A stretch of DNA of 62,700 nucleotides. It comes from a virus. Under the pieces are notes generated by a model, which was given only the letters and a program-made list of their open reading frames with translations, was not told the DNA's origin and did not search any database. Every line of letters starts with the position of its first letter. Position 1 is the first letter of the stretch. Both the position numbers and the translations under genes were made by a program. Below are positions 22,182-37,754 of this stretch, piece by piece. The stretch is from positions 1-62,700 of the IMG/VR virus record IMGVR_UViG_3300048625_000103, one strand, 5' to 3'.

Positions 22182-22489
22182 GTGTTCTTTTCCTTGAGTT
22201 TGGCTTCAACCAATTCCATAACGGTGGTGCGGTCATCTCTTTCGGTTGCGTAGATGATTTCCCATCTGCCCTGTGCCGTCATCCCAACCCATATGCGTTG
22301 TTGTGGTGTGGTGTAGAGAGGTTCACATCGAGGATCATTTTTGTTATCTAGGTATGTGCAATAGTTCCAAACCCAATGGTCATCTTCAACAGGCATCTTG
22401 TAGAGATATGCCACAGGCTCACCCTGCTCTTGCTTTGGTTGAACTGGGTGTGTTGCTTTTGAAATATTTTTATAGCCTTCGTCTTTCAT
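22178..22489 (-). CDS. Modular accessory protein with KQEQGEPVA linker (103 aa)
   Basis: Contains Lys-Gln-Glu-Gln-Gly-Glu-Pro-Val-Ala-Tyr, Glu-Pro-Leu-Tyr-Thr-Thr-Pro-Gln-Gln and a Trp-Val-Gly-Met-Thr segment. These are recognisable blocks of a very widespread but uncharacterised phage accessory family. The start uses the shared junction ATTAAGGAGTAAGACATG, whose first part encodes the end of the upstream gene. C-terminal 11 residues match the 21975 protein, consistent with domain shuffling. Function unknown. Confidence 0.75.
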   Translation of the reverse strand: MKDEGYKNISKATHPVQPKQEQGEPVAYLYKMPVEDDHWVWNYCTYLDNKNDPRCEPLYTTPQQRIWVGMTAQGRWEIIYATERDDRTTVMELVEAKLKEKNT

Positions 22490-22492
22490 GTC

Positions 22493-22624
22493 TTACTCCT
22501 TAATGCCGTAAACGGCTTCTGCATCCATACAAAACATTTCAAGCAACTCATACAACTCGACGCACCTGTTTTGCCAAGCAATAGCGTTGTCTAATGCTTT
22601 TAAAAATAATTCACGATCTGTCAT
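22493..22624 (-). CDS. 43-aa protein, paralogue of the plus-strand gene at 33883
   Basis: A 43-residue helical protein (Thr-Asp-Arg-Glu-Leu-Phe-Leu-Lys-Ala-Leu, Trp-Gln-Asn-Arg-Cys-Val-Glu-Leu-Tyr-Glu). It is identical at 37 of 43 positions to the product of 33883-34014 on the other strand. It begins 3 nt after the upstream stop and its end overlaps the ribosome site of the next gene. The strong conservation between copies argues that it is a real, expressed gene. Function unknown. Confidence 0.8.
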   Translation of the reverse strand: MTDRELFLKALDNAIAWQNRCVELYELLEMFCMDAEAVYGIKE

Positions 22625-22627
22625 GTT

Positions 22628-23443
22628 TTATTCCTTAATGCCGTGGGCGGCTTCGATTGCTCGTACAACTTTTACAAAGTCATCAATCTTGCACATATCG
22701 CAATCTTCAAGGCCGTTATCACGCCCCCACCATTTACGGATTTCAGCATCCGTAAGTGGCTTGCGTTGTTGTGGCGTTAGTCCTCTTATTACTTCAAGAC
22801 ATTCATTCCAGCCAGTCCGATAATCGGGACTTTCGCTGTCATCGGTAATGGAATCGGGCAATGCCATATGGTGTCGTTTGGTGTAGAGCAACGTACCAAT
22901 AGGCATAGGTTCGCCACGCCATTGGATAGTCTTTGTGTGTCTGATTTGGCCGAATCCAGCATATTCATTTGTACCGATTACTTCACCCACAGGCTCACCC
23001 TGCTCTTTCTGTGCTGCGGGTGGGGTGGAGAACAATCGGCACAAGTCAGAACGCCACCAAAACGCGCCCCTCTTTGTCGGGTGCTTTTGCTCAAACCAAA
23101 CGCCATCCCAATCGCCAGCGCCATAGAGGAAGTTCAGCATTTGCAGTTGCTCGCCTGTCCACGCCACAGGATCACCCTGCTCTTGCTTGGCTAGTGCAAC
23201 GTCGTACAAAGGAACAACCTGCCCAAGCGGTGTAAATGAAGCGCTGTTTTTATCTGTGCTCACTGCGCCATTGGACGGGTCGTACCATGCCAACGGTTTG
23301 CCATGCTCTTGTTGTGCCAAGGATTTTTCTAAAACCTCAATCGCATCGTCAACTTTGTTCAGATCAAACGATTTTTCATACGATGATGTGTAGGTGCAGC
23401 TATTCAACGCATCAAGCACCAGATTCATTTCTTCTTTGGTCAT
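22628..23443 (-). CDS. Modular accessory protein with three KQEQGEP-type linkers (271 aa)
   Basis: The N-terminus (Met-Thr-Lys-Glu-Glu-Met, Asp-Asp-Ala-Ile-Glu-Val-Leu-Glu) resembles the N-terminus of the 37050 protein. Three linkers of the type Gln-Glu-Gln-Gly-Asp/Glu-Pro-Val separate small Trp/aromatic-rich modules. The C-terminus is Pro-Leu-Thr-Asp-Ala-Glu-Ile followed by Val-Arg-Ala-Ile-Glu-Ala-Ala-His-Gly-Ile-Lys-Glu. The family is frequent in phages and has no known biochemical role. ATTCCAACATG with upstream AAGGA gives the start. Confidence 0.75.
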   Translation of the reverse strand: MTKEEMNLVLDALNSCTYTSSYEKSFDLNKVDDAIEVLEKSLAQQEHGKPLAWYDPSNGAVSTDKNSASFTPLGQVVPLYDVALAKQEQGDPVAWTGEQLQMLNFLYGAGDWDGVWFEQKHPTKRGAFWWRSDLCRLFSTPPAAQKEQGEPVGEVIGTNEYAGFGQIRHTKTIQWRGEPMPIGTLLYTKRHHMALPDSITDDSESPDYRTGWNECLEVIRGLTPQQRKPLTDAEIRKWWGRDNGLEDCDMCKIDDFVKVVRAIEAAHGIKE

Positions 23444-30303: not shown

Positions 30304-30594
30304 ATGTCTAAATACGCAAGACGAGTGGATGAGAATCAAGGTGACATCGTTAAAGCGCTGCGTGCTTGTGGTGCCACGGTGCGTGTGATCTCGCAGGGAG
30401 ACGGCATTCCTGATCTGTTGGTGGGGTATCAGGGGTACACAATTCTGATTGAAGTTAAGGATGGCCAGAAGCCTCCATCGGCGCGCAAGTTGACTGAAGC
30501 TGAGCAGGATTTCTTTGACAAGTGGACTGGCGGCATGTTGGTTATCGTCAATAGCGTGGAAGAGGCGCTTGAAACTCTGAAAAAGTGCTGTTAA
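30304..30594 (+). CDS. VRR-NUC family nuclease (96 aa)
   Basis: A compact PD-(D/E)XK nuclease: Glu10 in Asp-Glu-Asn-Gln, Asp37 in Gly-Ile-Pro-Asp-Leu-Leu-Val-Gly, and Glu50-x-Lys52 in Leu-Ile-Glu-Val-Lys-Asp-Gly. Stand-alone VRR-NUC proteins are common in phages and cut branched DNA such as Holliday junctions. It is the first gene of the plus-strand early arm, opposite the Erf operon. AAAGG lies 11 nt before the start. Confidence 0.88.
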   Translation: MSKYARRVDENQGDIVKALRACGATVRVISQGDGIPDLLVGYQGYTILIEVKDGQKPPSARKLTEAEQDFFDKWTGGMLVIVNSVEEALETLKKCC

Positions 30595-30682: not shown

Positions 30683-30740
30683 AACATGAATGAGTCTTGG
30701 GGCAATCCTGCCCAGCTACAGTACAGGGCTCATTCATGTT
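30683..30740 (+). other. Structured RNA leader spanning the nadV start codon
   Basis: A perfect 12-bp inverted repeat (AACATGAATGAG at 30683-30694 and CTCATTCATGTT at 30729-30740) encloses a small inner hairpin (GGGCA, loop ATCC, TGCCC). The apparent start codon of the nadV frame (30686) is inside the left arm, so folding would hide it. Confidence 0.6.
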
Positions 30741-31822
30741 GGTGGTCAAGGACGAAAGACAAAGGTACACGCTGGGTGCAGAGCAATGTCTTGGCGACCA
30801 TCGAGAACACAGACCCAAACTGCTATTGGCTTACTACTTACTTGGAGACCGCACTATTACGTGCTGTATGGTATCCAACAACCGTAGCCACGCAGAGCTG
30901 GCACATCAAGCAAATCATCAAAGGCTTTCTGGAGAAAACAGGTGATACTTCTCTCATTGATTTTAAGTTGCACGATTTTGGCGCTCGTGGTGCATCTAGC
31001 TTGGAGTCAGCCGCAATTGGTGGTGCCGCTCACCTCGTTAACTTCATGGGTACTGATACTGTTAGCGGCTTGCTCTACGCTCGTAAGTTTTATGATGCTG
31101 GTATTGCTGGCTTTTCCATCCCCGCTGCTGAGCACAGCACCATAACCAGCTGGGGTCGTGCAGGTGAAGTAGACGCCTATCGCAACATGCTCAAGCAGTT
31201 TGGCCAAGCGGGAAAGATCTTTGCCGTGGTGTCCGACAGTTACGACATCTTCAATGCAGCTGCAAAGCTGTGGGGTGAAGAGCTGAAGGATGAGGTGATT
31301 GCAAGCGGTGCGACATTGGTTATCCGTCCCGACAGTGGCGACCCCGTGGTGATCAACAGGCAGTTGATTGATATCCTTGGCCAGAAGTTTGGCTATACGG
31401 TCAACAGCAAGGGCTTTAAGGTTCTCAACCATGTCCGCATGATCCAAGGTGATGGCGTCAATGAGCTGTCTATCCGTTCCATCCTCGGCGCTTTCATGGC
31501 CGCAGGGTGGAGTGCAGACAACATCGCTTTCGGCATGGGTGGTGCACTGCTGCAACAGCTTGATCGTGATACCCAACGCTTTGCCATGAAGTGCTCGTCC
31601 GCTCAGATCAATGGTGAGTGGGTGCCAGTGCAAAAAGACCCGGTGACAGATTCCGGCAAGAAGTCCAAGGCTGGCCGCGTAACTTTGTACAAGAACCATG
31701 AAGGTGAGTTCTTTTCTGGAGTGGAAGATTGGCCAAATCCTGAGCTAAAAACTGTTTACATGAACGGCGTGATGTTCAATCAAATCACGTTTGAGCAGGT
31801 AAGGAAAAACAGCAACAAATGA
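30686..31822 (+). CDS. nadV: Nicotinamide phosphoribosyltransferase NadV, N-terminally truncated (378 aa)
   Basis: From about residue 34 the chain matches NAMPT/NadV: Asn-Val-Leu-Ala-Thr-Ile-Glu-Asn-Thr-Asp-Pro, Lys-Leu-His-Asp-Phe-Gly-Ala-Arg-Gly, Gly-Thr-Asp-Thr-Val, Pro-Ala-Ala-Glu-His-Ser-Thr (His150 corresponds to the phosphorylated histidine), Arg-Pro-Asp-Ser-Gly (214-218), Gln-Gly-Asp-Gly-Val and Gly-Met-Gly-Gly. The enzyme makes NMN from nicotinamide and PRPP. Normal members have ~460-490 residues; the first ~120, with the conserved Asp-Ser-Tyr-Lys segment whose Tyr completes the partner's active site, are missing and not found upstream. Residues 1-33 look unrelated. No Prs or NadM partner is nearby. 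It may be a degraded gene or a shortened protein; GTG at 30777 is another possible start. Confidence 0.8.
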   Translation: MNESWGNPAQLQYRAHSCWWSRTKDKGTRWVQSNVLATIENTDPNCYWLTTYLETALLRAVWYPTTVATQSWHIKQIIKGFLEKTGDTSLIDFKLHDFGARGASSLESAAIGGAAHLVNFMGTDTVSGLLYARKFYDAGIAGFSIPAAEHSTITSWGRAGEVDAYRNMLKQFGQAGKIFAVVSDSYDIFNAAAKLWGEELKDEVIASGATLVIRPDSGDPVVINRQLIDILGQKFGYTVNSKGFKVLNHVRMIQGDGVNELSIRSILGAFMAAGWSADNIAFGMGGALLQQLDRDTQRFAMKCSSAQINGEWVPVQKDPVTDSGKKSKAGRVTLYKNHEGEFFSGVEDWPNPELKTVYMNGVMFNQITFEQVRKNSNK

Positions 31823-31824
31823 AA

Positions 31825-31848
31825 AGGGGGCTACGGCCCTCTTTTTTA
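31825..31848 (+). terminator. Rho-independent terminator after nadV
   Basis: AGGGGGC, loop TACG, GCCCTCT, then a T run (31842-31847). One G-T pair. It sits 3 nt after the nadV stop. Confidence 0.8.
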
Positions 31849-31876
31849 TTGCGCGCCGGTTCAGGATATGTATAAT
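31849..31876 (+). promoter_or_regulatory. Sigma-70-type promoter for the non-coding RNA region
   Basis: TTGCGC (31849-31854), 16-nt spacer, perfect TATAAT (31871-31876). Expected start of transcription is near 31883. No coding frame with a ribosome site follows for 740 nt. Confidence 0.7.
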
Positions 31877-31882
31877 CCAAAC

Positions 31883-32007
31883 CGTTGCTGTGAAGGGCGA
31901 CAGGATAGATAGGCCGATTACACATGCGTTCCGCCTTATTTAATGACCGAGTATGCAGAGTCATTACGTAAGGCCTTCACCGGAATGCAGTTGTAATCGG
32001 CTTTTTT
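31883..32007 (+). ncRNA. Structured RNA domain 1: long nested hairpin ending in a T6 tract
   Basis: Nested helices are visible: GCCGATTACA (31913) with TGTAATCGGC (ends 32001); GCGTTCCG (31926) with CGGAATGC (ends 31988); GCCTTA with TAAGGC (31969-31974); AATGAC with GTCATT (31960-31965). TTTTTT follows at 32002-32007. Either this is a ~120-nt RNA with its own terminator, or it is the 5' domain of the larger RNA that continues to about 32510. Start is inferred from the promoter at 31849-31876. Confidence 0.7.
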
Positions 32008-32014
32008 GTTTCTG

Positions 32015-32510
32015 TGTGTTTAATGATGGTGAATGCGTAGGCTGATACGCAACTCTGCTTGGGCCGCTACACATTCCGTGTAGCGCGTGACCTATCCCAA
32101 GGTGAGGAACCAAGCTGGGAATCAGCGCCAGCCATCATCATTAAACACATACCGCCCTCCGCAGCTTCCGTACTCCGCACGATAGCAAGCACCTGCATGG
32201 GTGGCGCGGAAGGAAACACCGTCCCAACAAATCGTAATTGGCCCCCTTTTAGTCGAGCCGGGGGGATGCTGCAAATTATGCGAGGCGGCAAGGAAAATGG
32301 GTAAAGCACGTAAGACGTGAGGGGTAAGACAGAGGTGTCAGGGCGTACCTTAAAGCGCCACCCAGATGGAAAGAGCATACGGCAGAAGATCGCGTATTTT
32401 TGTGATCCAACCGAACTTGGTCGAAGGCAGCAGCTTTTGATGGAGAAGCTACTAAGAACCCTTGTAAACAACACGGGGTCATCTGGTGGCGGCTCGACCC
32501 ATGGCGAATC
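32015..32510 (+). ncRNA. Candidate giant ornate structured RNA, domains 2-5
   Basis: About 500 nt with no credible gene on either strand but dense complementarity. Domain 2: a perfect 14-bp helix (TGTGTTTAATGATG at 32015 with its complement ending 32149) encloses hairpins 32035-32050, 32058-32101 (with a perfect 8-bp CGCTACAC/GTGTAGCG arm) and 32114-32132. Domain 3: CCGCC/GGCGG (32152-32288) encloses GCAGC/GCTGC, CTTCCG/CGGAAG, CACC/GGTG and CCCCC/GGGGG. Domain 4: TGGGT/ACCCA (32298-32364) encloses CACG/CGTG, GACA/TGTC and GGCG/CGCC. Domain 5 (32380-32500): CCAA/TTGG, AGCTT/AAGCT and GGGTC/GACCC. Size, location in a phage and multi-domain layout resemble GOLLD- and ROOL-type RNAs; the class is not established here. 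Confidence 0.6.
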
Positions 32511-32532
32511 AAAATCCAATTGCTTTTCACTA

Positions 32533-32561
32533 TTGCACTTAATTGTCGATAGTTATATTTA
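32533..32561 (+). promoter_or_regulatory. Promoter for winged-helix regulator operon
   Basis: TTGCAC (32533-32538), 17-nt spacer, TATTTA (32556-32561); an overlapping TATATT (32554) gives a 15-nt spacer. The gene at 32627 follows with TAAGGAG. Confidence 0.5.
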
Positions 32562-32590
32562 TGTGTAGCGATGTGTAGATATGTGCTTAT
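32561..32590 (+). repeat. Three 10-bp direct repeats, likely operator
   Basis: ATGTGTAGCG, ATGTGTAGAT, ATGTGCTTAT lie head to tail, one helical turn each, at the expected transcription start of the operon that begins with a DNA-binding protein. They look like phased sites for autoregulation. Confidence 0.6.
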
Positions 32591-33886: not shown

Positions 33887-34014
33887 CAGACCGTGAATTA
33901 TTTTTGAAGGCGCTAAACAACGCCATCGCTTGGCAAAACAGATGTGTTGAGCTATACGAATTGCTTGAGATTTTTTGCATGGACGCAGAAGCCGCCCATG
34001 ACATCAGGGAGTAA
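33883..34014 (+). CDS. 43-aa protein, paralogue of the minus-strand gene at 22493
   Basis: 37 of 43 residues agree with the product of 22493-22624. The downstream junction (GAG, stop, GAC, ATG) is also shared. Two near-identical copies in opposite early arms argue for function or recent exchange. Helical, no motif. Confidence 0.8.
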   Translation: MTDRELFLKALNNAIAWQNRCVELYELLEIFCMDAEAAHDIRE

Positions 34015-37053: not shown

Positions 37054-37754
37054 GTAAAGAAGCAATGAAGCAGGCGCTTGAGGCGTTGACATTTTCACAA
37101 AGCGATTCAATAGCGGTAGAGGAATTGATTGACGATGCAATTATTGCCCTAGAAGAAGCACTAGCCAAGCAAGAGCAGGGTGAGCCTGTTTGGTCACTTG
37201 AAGATTGTGTGCGCACTTTAAAAACCCTGAACTACATAGAAGGAATTGCTGTAAAAGGCGAAGGTCGTCAAATGCGAGAGGATGAGTCGCTTGAGCAATT
37301 CATCCTTGGGTATGTAAAACGATTGGAAGCAGCATTTGCAAAGCAAGAGCAGGGTGAGCCAGCACCTGTGCAGAAGCCCGTTTGCCAAAAATGTGGCGGA
37401 ACAGGCAAAGTCGAAGAAGGCGGCGTTTATCCATCTGGGGATTTAGCGTATTTGCCCTGTGAATGCGCCACCACCTCACCCGCAGCACAACACAAGCCGC
37501 TGACGGATAAGACGGAAGGAAGAAGTGATCTAGAAATTGTCATTCAGACCGAAGACGTTGCGGCATTACTGATGCTTGAGATTTACCAACGAGAGTTAGG
37601 CGGCATAGCAAACCCTTTCAGGGACTCCGAGAACCCGCGAGCAAAACATTGCTGGCGCCTTGCTTGTCGCCTTCAAGAGATGCTGACAAACACCGACCCG
37701 ATGAACGCTGTCGCAGCAGTGGACGACGAAACCGCCCACGGCATTAAGGACTAA
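37050..37754 (+). CDS. Modular accessory protein with KQEQGEP linkers and zinc knuckle (234 aa)
   Basis: N-terminal helix module (Met-Ser-Lys-Glu-Ala-Met-Lys-Gln-Ala-Leu-Glu-Ala-Leu; Asp-Asp-Ala-Ile-Ile-Ala-Leu-Glu-Glu) as in 22628. Two linkers Ala-Lys-Gln-Glu-Gln-Gly-Glu-Pro. A zinc knuckle Cys-Gln-Lys-Cys-Gly-Gly-Thr-Gly ... Cys-Glu-Cys. Then Lys-Pro-Leu-Thr-Asp-Lys and a C-terminal module ending Thr-Ala-His-Gly-Ile-Lys-Asp. The nucleotides of the linkers are nearly identical to those on the minus strand at 22.4-23.3 kb. Function unknown. Confidence 0.75.
   Translation: MSKEAMKQALEALTFSQSDSIAVEELIDDAIIALEEALAKQEQGEPVWSLEDCVRTLKTLNYIEGIAVKGEGRQMREDESLEQFILGYVKRLEAAFAKQEQGEPAPVQKPVCQKCGGTGKVEEGGVYPSGDLAYLPCECATTSPAAQHKPLTDKTEGRSDLEIVIQTEDVAALLMLEIYQRELGGIANPFRDSENPRAKHCWRLACRLQEMLTNTDPMNAVAAVDDETAHGIKD

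Follow-up and report, generated by a model that had tools for sequence, protein, structure and literature searches.

The region 31884-32506 on the plus strand of the window, a 62,700-nt stretch of viral DNA (IMG/VR record IMGVR_UViG_3300048625_000103, positions 1 to 62,700), is, judged by sequence comparison, a non-coding multi-domain structured RNA locus behind a conserved sigma-70-type promoter. The locus is ~620 nt long and is carried by a freshwater-type tailed phage. Three structured domains are predicted: a pseudoknotted domain S, a tRNA-topology cassette (module A1) and a large mosaic domain 3. The locus combines the characters of an ornate large phage RNA, namely size, several domains, non-coding status, a pseudoknot and covariation-supported structure, and it is a new RNA family of this kind, the ornate phage RNAs near tRNAs. 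The first-pass annotation had proposed that a large structured RNA of several domains is encoded here behind a promoter of its own, and had named covariation among homologues as one test of it. The homologues support the proposal, as covariation is strong and compensatory changes occur in S, in A1 and in the class I large RNAs related to domain 3. The features are listed below.

31849-31876, plus strand: sigma-70-type promoter, from the sequence and its conserved position among S homologues; -35 TTGCGC at 31849-31854, 16-nt spacer, -10 TATAAT at 31871-31876
31884-32007, plus strand: domain S, with a 5' hairpin, a 7-bp pseudoknot, a long three-part hairpin and T6 (model R2, covariation, fold)
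31884-31901, plus strand: 5' hairpin of S, stem 31884-31888/31897-31901, loop 31889-31896 (homologues, covariation)
31890-31896, plus strand: pseudoknot 5' strand GTGAAGG, partner 31974-31980 (covariation)
31911-32003, plus strand: long hairpin of S, with stem A 31911-31922/31992-32003 followed by a CA/GT internal loop, stem B 31925-31933/31981-31989 and stem C 31934-31947/31960-31973 (homologues, covariation)
31974-31980, plus strand: pseudoknot 3' strand CCTTCAC, a bulge at the 3' side of the long hairpin (covariation)
32002-32007, plus strand: T6 directly after stem A, a putative terminator (T tract kept in homologues)
32015-32149, plus strand: domain 2, module A1, a three-way junction of tRNA topology (model R1, covariation, fold)
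32015-32031, plus strand: A1 P1 5' strand, partner 32133-32149 (pairing, covariation)
32034-32051, plus strand: A1 P2 hairpin TGCGTA[GGCTGA]TACGCA in D-arm position, preceded by an AA spacer (covariation)
32052-32113, plus strand: A1 variable insert of 62 nt (18-208 nt in relatives; swapped between copies)
32114-32132, plus strand: A1 P4 hairpin GCTGG[GAATCAGCG]CCAGC, flush on P1', in T-arm position (covariation)
32158-32221, plus strand: domain 3a, the 5' part, a homologue of the class II large RNAs (E=7.8e-18 by nhmmer with a profile that left out the window)
32239-32506, plus strand: domain 3b, a homologue of the class I large RNAs, containing GGTAAGAC..GTCAGGGCGTACC..GCGCCACCC (nhmmer, consensus fold)

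Folding of 31875-32520 on the plus strand gave -254 kcal/mol compared to -207 kcal/mol in dinucleotide shuffles (z -6.85); the minus strand of the region had z -3.36. When the domains were folded separately, z was -6.0 for 31884-32009, -7.1 for 32010-32152 and -1.3 for 32146-32515, the last being comparable to a coding control (z -1.26). The thermodynamic signal is confined to the first two domains only. The earlier claim that the region is structured throughout holds in part: S and A1 fold strongly, while the last 370 nt show conserved structure only by comparison. No reading frame stays open across the homologues of the region, and neither frame nor codon-like conservation was found in them, in agreement with the claim that no credible gene lies here. 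Rfam 15 had no match in the window at the gathering score, and at E<=10 the region gave nothing except a weak CrcZ tail upstream, at 31800-31877. ARAGORN found no tRNA or tmRNA in the window. A BLAST search of named phages with the entire region returned only the 28-nt A1 core described below, a short match to S (L005) and chance matches. In the open-licence literature no description of S or A1 was found; a mention in catalogues of candidate structured RNAs is possible.

The TTGCGC-N16-TATAAT promoter noticed in the first reading is present, and its position is conserved. A promoter score of at least 9 out of 12 was obtained at the equivalent place in 28 of 33 S homologues, compared to 1.1% of random positions. 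In the homologues GUUG, the start of the S 5' hairpin, lies 6-9 nt past the -10 element, which corresponds to the expected transcript start. The promoter position is predicted to set the RNA 5' end at the base of S.

Domain S was characterized in 41 IMG/VR loci assembled via relatives of a small protein encoded at 30304-30594. A descriptor without the pseudoknot found S in ~20 distinct sequences, and the 7-bp complement between the 5' loop and the 3' bulge was present in all of them. Among 19 distinct S cores the pseudoknot is 100% paired, with both-side changes in five of its seven pairs, and the whole S structure has 68 both-side cells (17.5 in shuffles). Model R2, from which both the window and the pseudoknot had been left out, matched the window at E=1.9e-19 and found S in 30 of the 41 loci; overall, S is present in at least 33 related loci, with E down to 1.6e-22. 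Twelve homologues outside the training set were likewise found without the pseudoknot, and 11 of these 12 have it. Ten have the exact seven pairs and L159 has six of seven; by our own reading L149 has seven pairs in a register shifted by one nucleotide. Apart from weak opposite-strand shadows, S is a single copy per record. A scan for promoter plus leader gave two relatives, L152 (on the same contig as L110) and L153, and an exact S 27-mer had no match in bacterial genomes. tRNAs adjoin S in L110, L112, L116 and L129.

The closing helix with T6 is present as first described: GCCGATTACA/TGTAATCGGC runs into the T tract. S has the make-up of an intrinsic terminator, a GC-rich stem with a U tract immediately 3', and a terminator scan for short loops misses it because the hairpin is long. 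At the T6 transcription probably either ends, giving a ~125-nt RNA, or reads through. This fits the earlier suggestion of a ~120-nt RNA plus a larger one, the predicted short product being domain S. If T6 is a strong terminator, A1 and domain 3 may rarely be made from this promoter.

The perfect 14-bp helix around a multi-branch junction (32015-32028/32136-32149) was confirmed; an extension (32029-32031/32133-32135) brings it to 17 pairs. Within it, TCAGC of the P4 loop (32122-32126) is complementary to GCTGA of the P2 loop (32041-32045). BLAST against phages found 28 nt of perfect identity between genes of Alcaligenes phage CASP1, as well as a near match in the tRNA array of Pseudomonas phage ZC03. 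Scanning IMG/VR for the 21-mer GAATGCGTAGGCTGATACGCA yielded 80 stretches. The A1 copies follow a common plan, consisting of P1, AA, P2 with a GGCUGA loop, an insert of 18-208 nt that is unrelated between copies, and a 5-bp P4 with an AUCAGY loop, flush on P1'. P1 varies from 5 to >20 bp. P4, the complementary loop and P1 occur together in 39 of 50 distinct contexts for which the 21-mer was the sole selection criterion, compared to 33 of 5000 shuffled sequences (0.66%). In 42 copies all pairs hold and nine pairs, in P1, P2 and P4, changed on both sides (63 both-side cells vs 11.4 in shuffles); as these copies were extracted by requiring pairing, the evidence is the covariation and not the percentage paired. 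The GCUGA and UCAGY loops are complementary in every copy and nearly invariant, with only G-C/G-U changes, so that covariation is no proof of their kissing contact. A pattern with free loops, used to look for a covarying contact, gave other loops only in unrelated sequence. From their complementarity, a kissing contact between the P2 and P4 loops is likely. Model R1, built without the window, matched it at E=7.1e-17. Bacterial genomes, mainly of Gamma- and Betaproteobacteria, have 77 stretches with a related 23-nt pattern; all of these stretches score with R1, the pattern itself forming part of that score. Besides the window, A1 was found in ~140 phage and bacterial sequences. Rfam at the gathering score has nothing that marks A1 in 15 carrier loci.

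Most relatives of the locus have 400-800 gene-less nucleotides after S, followed by differing genes (crude gene finder). These stretches 3' of S are conserved in at least four classes. A class I profile built without the window matched it by nhmmer at E=7.3e-30 over 32239-32578; since 32158-32221 matches class II, domain 3 is a mosaic. Its extent is ~32158-32506, and the window copy alone folds no better than chance. Comparison nevertheless indicates that domain 3 is a conserved structured RNA, despite this weak fold of its own. The consensus fold of class III reached z -11.8 against column shuffles, with 33 both-side pairs (15.3 in shuffles, maximum 29). For class I plus the window, alifold gave z -6.3 and 24 both-side pairs vs 11.2 in column shuffles (maximum 20); class I alone had z -6.5. 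The consensus folds of classes II and IV were weak (z -1.9 and -1.5). A distal TGGGT/ACCCA helix proposed in the first-pass annotation conflicts with the homologues, which favour a local hairpin CACC[TGCAT]GGGTG at 32190-32203 that covaries in L140. Rfam searches of relatives of classes I-IV gave only tRNAs above threshold, and no large domain 3 class was found in named phages. An HNH endonuclease gene lies directly 3' of a class III large RNA (L110:3577-4092), and several relatives have similar genes after their class III or IV RNAs.

Many of the stretches 3' of S open with a domain-2 module of the form GAGACTGGGA..CTGCT[TNATGTG]AGCAG..TCCCAGTCTC, a 5-bp hairpin flush on its own closing stem; the window has A1 in the same slot. 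Since 17% of shuffles likewise match a general descriptor of this slot, the evidence lies in the recurrent sequence only.

We consider it fairly probable that the region is a three-domain non-coding RNA locus in which S is either terminated or read through, the role as mimic or scaffold being the least certain part. Host RNA polymerase would start at ~31883, and the S hairpin with T6 would end most transcripts, giving a ~125-nt pseudoknotted RNA. A fraction of transcripts would read through into A1 and domain 3 and form a ~620-nt RNA, in which S, the cassette and domain 3 would fold independently of one another and two complementary loops would hold the cassette in an L-like shape. Least certainly, this RNA might be stable during infection and act as a structural mimic or scaffold on the machinery with which the host handles tRNAs or translates, one possibility being a bait for defences that cut tRNA; the swappable insert would be its variable part. 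The grounds for a tRNA-mimic function are topology and neighbourhood, and a role as stable mimic or scaffold of the tRNA machinery is our best guess, though more likely wrong than right.

The best-surviving alternative is that two unrelated units lie side by side, S being a terminated small RNA, and A1 and domain 3 separate cassettes in a tRNA/RNA hot spot that are transcribed from upstream. This is possible, and we would still bet against it. The T tract ends S in the homologues, many genomes have A1 without S or S without A1, L031 carries both in the order A1 then S, and nadV lies upstream on the same strand. However, in the phage clade at least 13 loci have a domain-2 stem within ~10 nt of S and domain 3 next, and no second promoter was found between S and A1 or domain 3.

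The genomic settings of A1 are diverse. In HK620 it lies in the late leader between pR' and the terminator tQ, in Bas80 beside tRNAs, tRNA-Met among them, and in a 97-kb E. coli plasmid within a tRNA array; in L019, L023, L047 and L049 it stands just before a ribosome binding site and ATG. Of 137 copies, 22 have a tRNA no more than 600 nt away, where 5.4 would be expected; among the 36 tRNAs in the neighbourhood, 33 share the strand of A1 and three are on the opposite one. Such positions in the HK620 leader, between tRNAs or before a ribosome binding site would suit a processing or transcription element (an RNase P or RNase III site, or an antiterminator) rather than a functional RNA, and tRNA-like stacking of acceptor and T-arm might suit RNase P. 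This explanation is unlikely, as it leaves unaccounted for the range of P1 lengths, the range of insert lengths and the exchange of cassettes. The exchange is seen in 23 pairs of copies with the same flank and different inserts and in 16 pairs with the same insert and different flanks, a pattern which indicates that A1 inserts swap as cassettes.

Several further modules were noticed beside A1. Klebsiella phage UPM 2146 contains 3.3 kb without annotated genes (L105:1891-5225) with many long closing stems, tRNA-like T-arms, one A1 and one module of a sister class, which reads as an RNA island. In the 97-kb E. coli plasmid (L108:2079-2870), tandem alternating modules lie between tRNAs, one strand (e.g. 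GTTGTG) being able to pair with the preceding or the following module; an annotated anti-Thoeris Tad2 gene is close by. The sister class (L105:4460-4565, L108:2728-2868, L106:2440-2550) has UAWGC as its P2 loop, set between two G-C pairs, and GAGGCAC as its P4 loop; no clear Watson-Crick loop contact was found in L105, L106 and L108. On a broader and rather speculative reading, which we would not expect to hold, Pseudomonadota phages would share a tRNA-shaped scaffold (A1 and its sister classes) in which the elbow is fixed and the insert freely exchanged. Lytic and temperate phages would trade this cassette, which would be incorporated alone or as arrays into larger ornate RNAs and serve as a variable bait or display in a conflict over host tRNA and translation.

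Returning to S, it might act as an attenuator, its pseudoknot competing with or stabilizing the terminator hairpin and so gating read-through on a host factor. The pseudoknot partner inside the terminator hairpin, the conserved T tract and the leader position at the transcript start would fit such a switch. The genes that follow, however, differ among relatives and lie 400-800 nt away, so no common regulated gene is seen, and we consider attenuation improbable. Chance structure or an unrecognised protein gene is refuted and has a negligible probability: open frames (81-172 aa) do overlap this part of the window, but they are broken in the homologues, and covariation exceeds that of shuffles in S, A1 and class I.

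The phage RNAs GOLLD and ROOL lie near tRNA islands, form cages and are of unknown function (PMC12286853). The first-pass comparison with them stands as to kind, an ornate phage RNA, and fails as to family, since neither model matches the window. GOLLD (RF02032) is a large phage or prophage RNA, often near tRNA islands, with a conserved and a variable part (PMC12286853). The window RNA is shorter and has three separable domains and an exchangeable tRNA-topology cassette. The setting is GOLLD-like, with phage genes around the locus and tRNAs adjoining S in relatives, though none in the window. The GOLLD model had no window match by cmscan at E<=10, nor in an RF02032 search of the window's own record. 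ROOL (RF03087), likewise an RNA of phages or prophages close to tRNA islands, is ~570-600 nt long and has kissing loops (PMC12286853). Its model did not match the window, the positive control of one ROOL search being likewise silent; membership in either family is excluded at the profile level, with this same reservation for ROOL.

T4 RNAC and RNAD (species 1 and 2 RNAs), late RNAs visible on Northern blots (PMC9697503), are also stable phage RNAs of unknown function encoded in a tRNA cluster. Neither R1 nor R2 had a match in T4. T4 RNAC (L109:1409-1547) ends in CCGGGTTCGAATCCCGG, a canonical T-arm sequence, which suggests a tRNA-like 3' domain.

A1 resembles tRNA in the order of its helices, the 2-nt spacer after the acceptor-like stem, the 5-bp T-arm-like hairpin flush on the closing stem and a putative contact between the first and last hairpin loops. 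Helix order and spacing are tRNA-like in the 42 copies; the loop contact in three dimensions is a prediction. Unlike tRNA, A1 has a longer P1, a 9-nt loop in T position and no CCA end, and where tRNA has its anticodon arm A1 has an insert that may be of any sequence. A true tRNA was rejected, as a cloverleaf with anticodon arm and CCA is absent and ARAGORN and the Rfam tRNA model were silent. Between tRNA genes of ZC03 (L003, ~2138-2185), a hammerhead-like core (CTGATGAG...CGAAAC) was seen by eye, on which Rfam at the gathering score was silent.

The large phage RNAs near tRNA genes, GOLLD, ROOL and T4 RNAC/RNAD, have no known function. The present analysis adds two widespread, precisely defined and unlisted elements, S with its covarying pseudoknot, and A1. 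The latter is present in E. coli phages that are amenable to laboratory work, Bas80 and HK620 for example, and since its insert and scaffold are swappable, it offers a direct handle on what such RNAs do.

The window phage encodes a terminase, a portal protein, a helicase and nadV. Its terminase shares ~50% identity with that of Pelagibacter phage HTVC027P and that of phage DSL-LC04; in the stretches examined of the nearest cultivated terminase relatives (HTVC027P, DSL-LC04 and 023Pt_psg01, ~50% identity), neither S nor A1 was found. A QGDGIPD motif is present in the small protein at 30304-30594, for which Pfam gave no hit; we take this protein to be VRR-NUC-like. The nadV gene (NAPRTase by Pfam) lies at 30686-31822, upstream of the locus on the same strand, and in L110 this position, immediately ahead of the S promoter, is occupied by three genes for tRNAs (Met, Pro and Asn). 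A repeat, AAGCAAGAGCAGGGTGAGCCTGT, occurs with close variants at 22411-22437, 22987-23013 and 23164-23190 on the minus strand and at 37152-37186 and 37326-37360 on the plus strand of the window, as well as in L110 and L153; it is possibly a recurrent coding motif. Window positions 33888-33991 and 22516-22619 are similar to each other on opposite strands and both resemble one place in L110, as paralogous small genes.
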